A stretch of 64,000 nt of DNA from Xylogone sp. PMI_703 (taxonomy: Eukaryota > Ascomycota > Leotiomycetes): positions 4,774,001 to 4,838,000 of the forward strand of contig JAJTUQ010000002.1 in assembly GCA_021399445.1 (NCBI GenBank). The letters run 5' to 3'. Within the stretch, counting starts at the first letter, position 1. Every line of letters starts with the position of its first letter. Of the stretch, positions 35,069 through 38,930 are shown in pieces. Below the pieces are notes generated by a model. That model was not told the DNA's origin. It worked only from the letters and a program-made list of their open reading frames with translations, and searched no databases. A program made the translations under genes and the position numbers.

Positions 35069-36917
35069 ATGGGAAACCAGCCTTCCAAGGGACCAGGCTC
35101 CGGCTCGGGCACGTCTACACCTAGAGGTAGTATGTCTGCAGCACCGGGAGACAAATCATTTTCGGACCTTCAGTCATATCCCTCGTTTAGCAAGTCTGAC
35201 ACAAAAGACTCTACGAGATCATTCAGAGGTGCGCTACGGTCAAAGATACCCGGCTCCAAGACTGACAGTCCGCGAAACTCGATTGCTGGGTTTCCAAACG
35301 GAGATATAAATGGAGATAAGCCAGATGCGATATCAACAAAATCAGGGAGAAATGGGAAGGGCCCTCTGGGAAAGCTGGGACGTTCCGATACAGATTCACC
35401 AATCTCACCAGTTGGCCCATCTGATGCCGAATCTCTGACCTCGCCTGTAGACGATCCTCAGCCTCCTCCATCTCCGACTACCTCTCAATCTGTACGGCAG
35501 GGTGTGCATGATGTCGCTGCTGCGCAACGTTCAGGTGAAGTTGGCCATGTCTCTGACCAACCACCTTCTGGAACCACCAATCCATACTCTCACCTGCAAA
35601 AGCCAGGACAGTCCATCTTGGTCAAGAAACCGGATACACCAAACCCAGTGGTGAACCCAGTTCTTGATATGCTCAAGACCCTTGAGCATGAAAAAGAGAC
35701 CCATGGTATGGCAATGAGCGAACTGAAGGAATCAGATGTCGATGATTTTATAAAACGTCTCCTGGATGCGGGTTATGCAGGGAAAAGCACGAAGGGCGTC
35801 TGCCTCCGAAACGCCGAGATTACTGCGATCTGCTTGCGTGTGAAGGAGATCTTTTTGGAGCAACCGCCTTTGTTAGAGCTCGATGCACCTGTTAAGATAG
35901 TGGGAGATATTCATGGCCAATATTCCGATCTTATTCGAATGTTCGAGATGTGTGGTTTCCCGCCGAGTGCTAACTTCCTCTTCCTTGGAGACTATGTTGA
36001 TCGAGGGAAGCATTCTTTGGAAACAATATTACTGCTTATGTGCTATAAAATCAAATACCCGGAAAATTTCTTCCTCCTTAGGGGAAATCATGAGTGTGCG
36101 AATGTTACACGTGTTTATGGTTTTTACGATGAGTGCAAACGGAGATGTAATGTGAAAATTTGGAAGACATTTGTGGATGCCTTCAATACGGTATGTCGAT
36201 CCTATATTTATACATAATTACTTTTATACTCACTAATAACGTCCATAGCTTCCAATTGCTGCAATTGTTGCTGGGAAGATTTTCTGCGTTCATGGTGGGT
36301 TGTCACCGGCACTCAGTCATATGGATGATATCCGACATATCGCAAGACCAACGGACGTACCTGACTTCGGCCTCCTCAACGACCTCCTTTGGGCTGACCC
36401 AGCAGATCAAGAGAAGGATTGGGAATCTAGTGAACGAGGCGTAAGCTATTCGTTTGGAAAACGAGTTATAACCGACTTCCTTGCGAAACACGACTTTGAT
36501 CTCGTCTGCCGAGCACATATGGTTGTTGAAGATGGATATGAATTCTTCGAGGATAGGATCCTTGTCACTGTGTTCTCAGCCCCGAATGTAAGTTCAAAAC
36601 TTTGGTCTCTCTAATCTGCGTTTGCTCCCCACATGGTTGAAAGGTCTAGGCCGTATATACTAACCAGGGTTAGTACTGTGGAGAATTTGATAATTATGGC
36701 GCTGTTATGAGCGTCTCAACCGAGCTGCTTTGCAGCTTCGAGCTTCTTAAACCTCTGGATTCTAGCGCTCTCAAGAGTCAGATGAAGAAGGCTAGTAAAA
36801 AGAGAAACAGCATGCTTAACAGCCCTCCGGTACGTATTCATCTTGCTATCTTTGCATATTATGTTATCTGTACTAATGTATTTCTAGCCAACCGGTTTTG
36901 TCCCTCAGAGTGTATAA
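35069..36917 (+). CDS. PPZ1: Ser/Thr phosphatase of the PPZ type
   Basis: Four exons, 35069-36190, 36249-36587, 36674-36829 and 36888-36917, encode 548 aa; all introns are phase 0. It starts MGNQPSKG, an N-myristoylation signal. About 210 Ser/Pro-rich disordered residues precede a PP1-like catalytic core with GDIHGQ, GDYVDRG, RGNHE, the HGG motif (VHGGLSPAL) and [13 protein letters not shown]. The last motif is assembled across the third junction. The long N-terminal extension plus myristoylation site distinguishes PPZ from PP1. In yeast PPZ enzymes act at the plasma membrane on cation homeostasis and cell-wall integrity. The final exon is only 10 codons and ends PTGFVPQSV. Confidence 0.93.
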
Positions 36918-38277: not shown

Positions 38278-38284
38278 AAAAAAA
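38278..38284 (-). terminator. RNA polymerase III terminator of tRNA-Ser
   Basis: Seven consecutive T on the minus strand begin 7 nt past the tRNA discriminator base. This is the expected position and form of a Pol III terminator. It indicates that the upstream tRNA is, or recently was, a genuine Pol III unit. Confidence 0.75.
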
Positions 38285-38309
38285 GCAATTTCGACTAGAG
38301 CAGGATTTG

Positions 38310-38364
38310 CTATTATCAAGATTAGTCATGTTTAGTTATATGGGAGATTTTAAGGGAAACATAC
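38310..38364 (-). other. GT-AG intron-like insert in the T loop of tRNA-Ser
   Basis: 55 nt lie between T55 and C56 of the tRNA. It starts GTATGT, has ACTAAT near its end and finishes AATAG. Removing it restores the T loop TTCAAAT exactly. It shares its start (GTTTCCCTTAAA) and end (CTAATCTNGATAATAG) with the insert at 38410-38465. Confidence 0.75.
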
Positions 38365-38409
38365 AACCTGCGCCTCCGAAGAGAACAGATTATCTAATCT
38401 TATGATTCG

Positions 38410-38465
38410 CTATTATCTAGATTAGCTGCATTCTAATCTTGATAGCAAGTTTAAGGGAAACGAAC
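38410..38465 (-). other. GT-AG intron-like insert before the anticodon of tRNA-Ser
   Basis: 56 nt lie between T33 and C34 of the tRNA. It starts GTTCGT, has GCTAAT as branch-like site and ends AATAG. Removing it joins CT to CGAA, giving a Ser CGA anticodon loop. The site is not the canonical nuclear tRNA intron position (37/38), which is occupied by a separate 15-nt intron. Confidence 0.75.
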
Positions 38466-38498
38466 AGTCTGTCGCGTTAACCACTCCGCCATCTAGCC

Positions 38499-38930
38499 GA
38501 GAAAAGGTGGGTAGATTGCCTTATCAGAATTTATATTCCGGTCCATAGACCAACGGCTGGAACGTAGTCTTACTGGCCTTTGAGCCATATGCGAGGCTCA
38601 TTATAAGCCTAGAATCAAGTCATTTGGTTAATAAGATTTTTACTATCCCTCAGGCGGGACATTTAAAGTAGCCTTAGAATGGCCATTGGGGCTTGAAGGG
38701 ATAGGACTTGGCGCGTTGCTTTAATGTCATATGTCTGAAAAGGCTACAATGATCACAGCATACAGAAGAGAACAAGTGTTTGACCCAATATAAACATATT
38801 CTTATATTACAGTACTATTAAGGCTACATTATTTTGTTATAGCAGACAGGTAAAAGTACACAGGCATAGCACTCGCTCTCAATAAACATTATTCCATCTC
38901 ATCTTTCTCTCCAATTCAATCAACCTAAAC
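38499..38930. other. Spacer between tRNA-Ser and the secreted-protein gene
   Basis: 432 AT-rich bases. No gene is seen. The promoter-proximal flank of the tRNA lies at its left end. Confidence 0.5.

Follow-up and report, generated by a model that had tools for sequence, protein, structure and literature searches.

Introns in tRNA genes are, in the textbook view, the business of a dedicated endonuclease, and spliceosomal introns are found mainly in RNA polymerase II (Pol II) transcripts. Spliceosomal introns are also present in the rRNA genes of some lichen fungi, and U6, one of the small RNAs considered below, is encoded by a polymerase III (Pol III) gene. Two small structured RNAs, U3 and U6, were the only ones known to be often intron-interrupted according to a 2017 study (PMC5832005), and tRNA splicing is set apart from the spliceosome in a 2026 review (PMC13149111). 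The introns of fungal U6 snRNA and U3 snoRNA genes resemble those that we describe here, as they are short GT-AG introns with a branch site placed in small structured RNA genes. Here, in contrast, the hosts are tRNA genes, at least 22 of them, interrupted at 12 positions, and some of the introns split the internal A or B box.

A second point of comparison is provided by the ectopic tRNA introns of archaea, Cyanidioschyzon and nucleomorphs, which also lie outside the 37/38 site, including in the D, variable and T arms (PMC3978253). These introns are linked with the tRNA endonuclease and in most cases with a bulge-helix-bulge (BHB) motif, while many of the nucleomorph ones form no defined BHB; those described here carry, instead, spliceosomal signals. 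Among the titles, abstracts and passages covered in the open-access literature, we came across no tRNA gene described as having spliceosomal introns. We therefore consider the occurrence of spliceosomal-type introns in tRNA genes likely to be novel, and likely to represent a new class of host gene for a known kind of intron.

The interrupted tRNA-Ser(CGA) gene

The gene lies in Xylogone sp. PMI_703 (Leotiomycetes), within a stretch of 64,000 nt hereafter called the window, and all coordinates without a contig or locus name refer to it. Very probably, this nuclear tRNA-Ser(CGA) gene is functional and belongs to a set of at least 22 tRNA genes with U2-type spliceosomal introns outside 37/38; its transcript would be processed by both the spliceosome and the endonuclease. 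The gene is read on the minus strand, from 38498 to 38292. Its 5' exon of 33 nt (38466..38498) contains the 5' strand of the acceptor stem, the D arm and the 5' strand of the anticodon stem, up to T33. It is followed by an intron of 56 nt at 33/34 (i1, 38410..38465; GTTCGT..CTAAT..TAG), by the 4-nt exon CGAA (38406..38409; anticodon 34-36 and A37), by a canonical intron of 15 nt at 37/38 (38391..38405), and by an exon of 26 nt (38365..38390) that runs from position 38 through the 3' strand of the anticodon stem, the variable arm and the T stem to T55. A third intron of 55 nt then interrupts the T loop at 55/56 (i3, 38310..38364; GTATGT..CTAAT..TAG), and the gene ends with an 18-nt exon (38292..38309) going from C56 to the discriminator G73. 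Both i1 and i3, which fall outside the canonical site occupied by the 15-nt intron, have a single cut placement giving the mature sequence, and both times it is bounded by GT..AG. The 15-nt intron was recognized by ARAGORN in the anticodon loop once the GT-AG pieces were removed, with a cut one base earlier that is equivalent.

In the unspliced window, ARAGORN found 0 tRNA and Rfam gave no tRNA at gathering thresholds. (Elsewhere in the window, positions 1346-1591 of the minus strand match the H/ACA snoRNA snR191 with 50.9 bits.) When the two GT..AG pieces alone are removed, ARAGORN calls a tRNA-Ser(cga) with a 15-nt anticodon-loop intron, and when the 56, 15 and 55 nt are all taken out in silico, it reports an intact 81-nt tRNA-Ser(cga). 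This mature form folds into a cloverleaf with a long variable arm, a correct anticodon loop and the T-loop TTCAAAT, and all 21 pairs checked in the acceptor, D, anticodon and T stems are formed. A preliminary description had proposed here a type-II tRNA-Ser(CGA) gene with two GT-AG introns and one canonical intron at 37/38; every testable detail of this proposal holds, from its coordinates and piece lengths (56/15/55 nt) to the mature form, which ARAGORN accepts. Another way of cutting the transcript would give another tRNA. Indeed, with i3 alone removed, ARAGORN reads a serine body in which a 71-nt intron lies at 34/35 and the anticodon is GAT. Such a product is hardly credible, as its intron would sit at 34/35 instead of 37/38 and lack GT..AG ends, and it would combine an Ile anticodon with the long variable arm of a serine-type body.

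The mature sequence of the tRNA-Ser(CGA) gene and that of the Ser-TGA gene on contig C1 are identical at 62 of 81 positions. Seven pairs differ between them, six of these on both sides, and such two-sided changes are the mark of a structure kept under selection since the two genes split.

Both i1 and i3 start with GT, end with TAG and contain CTAAT with its A, the predicted branch point, 12 nt before the intron end (38422 for i1 and 38322 for i3, both on the minus strand). We compared them with the mRNA introns of the neighbouring PPZ phosphatase gene, on the plus strand, which were placed by exact matching to the database protein P0032. These are intron 1 (36191..36248; GTATGT..CTAAT..TAG, A 12 nt from the end), intron 2 (36588..36673; GTAAGT..CTAAC..TAG, 10 nt) and intron 3 (36830..36887; GTACGT..CTAAT..TAG, 11 nt). 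The three introns share the branch motif and its spacing with i1 and i3, which bears out the earlier remark that the latter resemble the mRNA introns of this genome; as the script permitted GT..AG introns only, the comparison, with n = 3 introns of one gene, is informative only for the branch motif, its spacing and the part of the 5' site beyond GT.

The two introns also resemble each other. Both contain TTTCCCTTAAA close to the 5' end and finish with CTAATCTwGATAATAG, and 22 of the 23 compared end positions agree, a score that is joint top with that of one Arg-ACG pair among 325 pairs of tRNA introns (mean 7.5). Hence, by their sequences, i1 and i3 look like copies of one another. In this they recall the introner-like elements of fungi, which also are copies of one intron sequence (PMC4457414). 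A family of such elements would be expected to have many near-identical copies genome-wide, whereas an exact-pattern search of the 50-Mb genome with TTTCCCTTAAA..CTAAT matched only i1 and i3, a search that diverged copies could escape. We dropped the idea of an introner family on this result and on a second one, obtained with the 3' end, which gave 18 matches at up to 3 mismatches versus 13 in a reversed control. In the comparison of the ends of 26 tRNA introns, the other introns do not form a single repeat family either. No tRNA was seen around a 2-mismatch match located beside a tRNA-Tyr gene on contig C12. A near-copy of the 3' end of i1 and i3 (TAACTAATTTTGATAATAG) is observed at L058:897-915 (C12:346396-346414), about 120 bp from tRNA-Tyr and on the opposite strand. 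The two introns are also linked by an inverted repeat: within i1 lies TTGCTATCAAGATTAG, which is close to an inverted copy of the last bases of i3 together with the three exon bases that follow (38433-38448 with 38307-38325). In the predicted minimum-energy fold of the whole precursor, i1 pairs with i3 and the i3 branch site is hidden.

GT-type introns in other tRNA genes

To describe the rest of the genome, we fetched 56 short stretches, i.e., 33 with a B box (G57) and a T run, 7 with the A57 variant and a T run, 3 candidates for a T-loop intron, and 13 B boxes without T run. The G57 pattern with a T run had 104 matches, of which 100 were listed, versus 33 in a reversed control, and the A57 pattern with a T run had 56 versus 48. 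The set of fetched loci is neither random nor complete, and the tRNA inventory is accordingly incomplete. We did not base the inventory on RF00005, which gave a score to 63 of 1824 candidates and failed to detect the tRNA-Ser(CGA) gene of the window, a second Ser-CGA gene (L156) and all the other interrupted genes except two (L091 and L092). Genes with GT-type introns were found in 15/33 stretches of the first group, 4/7 of the second, and 0/3 and 0/13 of the last two, and the 13 B-box places without T run (L163-L175) contain no tRNA at all; L091 and L092, reached via Rfam, and the gene of the window complete the 22. An Arg-ACG-like copy without 5' half (L142) was excluded before the counts.

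In total, at least 22 tRNA genes carry 26 GT-type introns of 49-64 nt. In our own loop numbering, these occupy 12 positions: 14/15, 18/19, 19/20, 21/22, 25/26, 26/27, 30/31, 31/32, 32/33, 33/34, the variable arm next to 48, and 55/56. Canonical introns of the nuclear type, located at 37/38 and removed by the Sen endonuclease, are present in the same genes (n = 15, 11-37 nt, all at 37/38 in our numbering), and the two kinds contrast sharply: GT..AG ends are found in 24/26 GT-type introns versus 0/15 canonical ones. A YTRAY motif whose A lies 9-15 nt before the intron end also occurs in 24/26 GT-type introns, versus a mean of 2.7 and a maximum of 9 in 1000 shuffles. The bounds of 20 of the 26 can be placed in two or more ways giving the same mature tRNA, and the GT..AG placement was the one chosen; the remaining six, which allow a single placement, are GT..AG in four cases, GT..TG in one and GT..CG in one. 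Four of the 26, i1 (GTTCGT) and i3 (GTATGT) among them, do not have AG at intron positions 4-5. In the Arg-ACG genes L124 and L125 (C1:6080960-6083800), the intron GTAAGT..TTAAC ends with TG and CG instead of AG, while the paralogue L143 has CAG; these ends may be either mutated acceptors or cases of non-AG splicing. ARAGORN accepts 21 of the 22 mature forms, rejecting that of the Leu-CAA gene L148 and reading L141 with an 8-nt loop.

One could suppose that the tRNA splicing endonuclease excises all three introns of the tRNA-Ser(CGA) gene, as it does for the ectopic introns of Cyanidioschyzon and archaea, and that the GT..AG ends are fortuitous. Examples of ectopic tRNA introns associated with the endonuclease and the BHB are indeed known, many nucleomorph ones having no defined BHB (PMC3978253), and nucleotides 2-5 of i1 pair 4/4 with exon nucleotides 1-4, one step out of register. 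In register (intron nucleotides 2-5 with exon nucleotides 2-5), the central helix of the BHB forms 2/4 pairs for i1 and 1/4 for i3. This crude test of a 4-bp helix does not discriminate, as the helix is complete in register in 1/26 GT-type and 0/15 canonical introns, and we dropped BHB pairing as an argument against the endonuclease since the canonical introns fail it too. On the other hand, the uniform length of 49-64 nt, the GT..AG ends, which none of the 15 canonical introns has, and the branch motifs would all be superfluous for an endonuclease, and we hold removal of all three introns by this enzyme to be very improbable. Most likely, as judged from these signals, the spliceosome removes i1 and i3 and the endonuclease the intron at 37/38.

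Several other candidates were discarded. Further T-loop introns were sought with GGTTGT..AGCRANNCC, which gave 100 matches versus 81 in the reversed control; flanks were examined for three matches besides i3 (L136-L138), and these have no paired T stem. The A-box-like matches L061, L062 and L064 resemble, by eye, dispersed tRNA-headed repeats and not genes, and L063, L093 and L094 are not tRNA-like. The first three have tRNA-Leu/Ser-like 5' halves and a common TTTTGTTGCACGTC leader, and no 3' half was seen. Another locus, L123, is tRNA-like and has a B box, and is not accepted by ARAGORN. No gene for tRNA-Asp, Glu, Gly-GCC, Val-AAC or Ser-GCT appeared in the genome pattern and Rfam scans; these genes may be interrupted in a way that is invisible to the patterns, or have a different T loop.

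Paralogues and the question of pseudogenes

The paralogues of the interrupted genes are informative as regards their function. Of the three genes for Pro-AGG, one carries introns at 14/15 and at 32/33, and the other two carry one at 19/20; all lead to an identical 72-nt tRNA. The four Leu-AAG genes, two of which have an extra D-loop intron, lead to an identical 82-nt tRNA. In the Pro-AGG, Leu-AAG, Phe and Arg-TCT families, exons are 100% identical between paralogues and GT-AG introns 59-70% (around 50% when shuffled). This contrast is weaker in the other families, i.e., Leu-TAA (exons 98%, introns 62%), Leu-CAA (82-83% and 54-67%) and Arg-ACG (94-97% and 79-91%). Relatives without a GT-AG intron exist for Phe (L140), Pro-TGG (L153) and Ile (L080, in our reading; Asn for ARAGORN). 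For six isoacceptors, all the copies found are interrupted: Pro-AGG (3/3), Leu-AAG (4/4), Leu-CAA (3/3), Leu-TAA (2/2), Arg-ACG (3/3, leaving out L142) and Arg-TCT (2/2). In the other loci that were fetched, ARAGORN gave 63 distinct hits, where identical neighbours may be merged, and by our loop reading none of them belongs to these six isoacceptors. The labels given by ARAGORN differ from our loop readings in several cases, above all for L131 (Leu-taa versus our Leu-TAG); should the ARAGORN label be correct, one Leu-TAA copy would lack a GT-AG intron. We also counted ten codons in PPZ, Ser TCG among them, and codons of the interrupted isoacceptors are used there, for instance AGA (7), CTT (15), CCT (14) and TTA (2); CGC is absent. 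Taken as a whole, the interrupted tRNA genes are probably not pseudogenes.

The tRNA-Ser(CGA) gene of the window had first seemed to be the sole CGA gene, as a query with its mature sequence returned only Ser-TGA and two of its own exons. The B-box search overturned this view by revealing, at C19:7875938, a Ser-CGA gene with only a 14-nt canonical intron (L156), whose sequence matches the mature sequence of the first at 59/81 positions and differs at 22/81. A further locus called Ser-cga by ARAGORN, with an intron at 34 (L127), has no long variable arm and was read as Gly-CCC. The uniqueness that the preliminary description implied for the locus does not survive these results, given the 21 further tRNA genes with GT-type introns and a Ser-CGA gene that lacks them. 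The same description had held that another intact Ser-CGA gene, combined with an absence of reads across the junctions, would designate a pseudogene with insertions, and the first of these two elements, the intact gene, was found.

The locus could then be a tRNA-Ser pseudogene hit by two related insertions, the working CGA gene being the one on C19. This reading takes in the existence of L156, the splitting of the B box, the relatedness of the two inserts and the inverted repeat that they contain. It accounts poorly for the absence of any broken pair among the 21 checked and for the six two-sided changes relative to Ser-TGA. Moreover, GT and AG exactly delimit both inserts, each with a branch motif 12 nt before its 3' border, the T7 run downstream is retained, and 21 other tRNA genes are interrupted in a similar way, among them all the copies found for six isoacceptors. 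A pseudogene at this locus is, on these grounds, quite unlikely. Because the stems are perfect and six pairs have changed on both sides relative to Ser-TGA, L156 would not by itself make a pseudogene of the interrupted gene; its existence does mean that the latter, which we continue to regard as functional, may be dispensable.

Transcription, processing and consequences

The case for a functional interrupted gene is reinforced by the 21 other tRNA genes with GT-type introns and by the U6 snRNA gene, which is interrupted as well. On contig C20 (L176:1482-1534), U6 is interrupted immediately upstream of GAAACGATACAGAG by a 53-nt GT..CTAAC..TAG intron, inside which the Rfam match begins, missing the 5' exon. 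A degenerate U6-like copy without intron is found at L178:1501-1594 (C12), and its sequence makes it possibly a pseudogene derived from spliced U6 RNA.

The internal Pol III promoter, made of the A and B boxes, is not intact in the tRNA-Ser(CGA) gene. Its A-box region is identical to that of two Ser-TGA genes and the A box is intact, but i3 splits the B box, which weighs against the proposed recognition of the gene by Pol III. A candidate upstream TATA element, TATAAATT, is present at -37 (38528..38535, minus strand). More generally, TATAW occurs between -55 and -20 in 11/22 interrupted tRNA genes and in 23/71 tRNA genes found by ARAGORN, a set that includes some interrupted loci, compared with 12.6% of random stretches. 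According to a review (PMC3978253), the transcription of tRNA genes is influenced by an upstream TATA box in some plants and fungi, and yeast tRNA genes that bear one are transcribed without TFIIIC in vitro. The TATA element could compensate for the split B box.

Transcription of the interrupted tRNA genes by Pol II rather than Pol III, followed by the action of the spliceosome and the release of the tRNA by RNase P and Z, would by reasoning account both for the access of the spliceosome and for the tolerance of split A and B boxes. Against this, a T7 run resembling a Pol III terminator lies 7 nt after the tRNA-Ser(CGA) gene (38278..38284, minus strand), and TTTT occurs inside only 2/26 GT-type introns versus 6.5 expected (P 0.014), both of which point to Pol III. 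In addition, U3 and U6 of other fungi have spliceosomal introns, so that Pol II need not be required (PMC5832005). Pol II transcription is, in our opinion, unlikely.

In the pathway that we propose, Pol III, aided by the upstream TATA element and the intact A box, would make a precursor ending in the T7 run. The spliceosome would then take out i1 at 33/34 and i3 at 55/56 as GT-AG introns, using their CTAAT branch sites. The cloverleaf could form only afterwards, and the tRNA splicing endonuclease and a ligase would excise the 15-nt intron at 37/38; we place this step after the spliceosomal one because i1 and i3 break the fold that the endonuclease needs. The predicted product would be a normal 81-nt tRNA-Ser(CGA) reading UCG. 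As for the origin of the introns, one of i1 and i3 probably derives from the other by copying within the gene, for instance through reverse splicing or template switching.

If this is correct, the failure of ARAGORN and Rfam on this gene is explained, and the genome offers a natural test of how the spliceosome deals with Pol III transcripts whose exons are very short (4-33 nt in the tRNA-Ser(CGA) gene). Intron gain would also become datable on genes whose exons are identical in several families. The spliceosome could process tRNA precursors routinely, from around two dozen tRNA genes that include all the copies found of some essential isoacceptors, and translation capacity would be coupled to splicing. 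On balance, we lean towards an even broader view, in which the translation apparatus of this fungus largely depends on the spliceosome. The tRNAs Pro-AGG, Leu-AAG, Leu-CAA, Leu-TAA, Arg-ACG and Arg-TCT would be made only via spliceosomal splicing of Pol III precursors, many of them then spliced by the endonuclease, and introns would still be arising in tRNA genes, in the case of tRNA-Ser(CGA) by copying to a second site.
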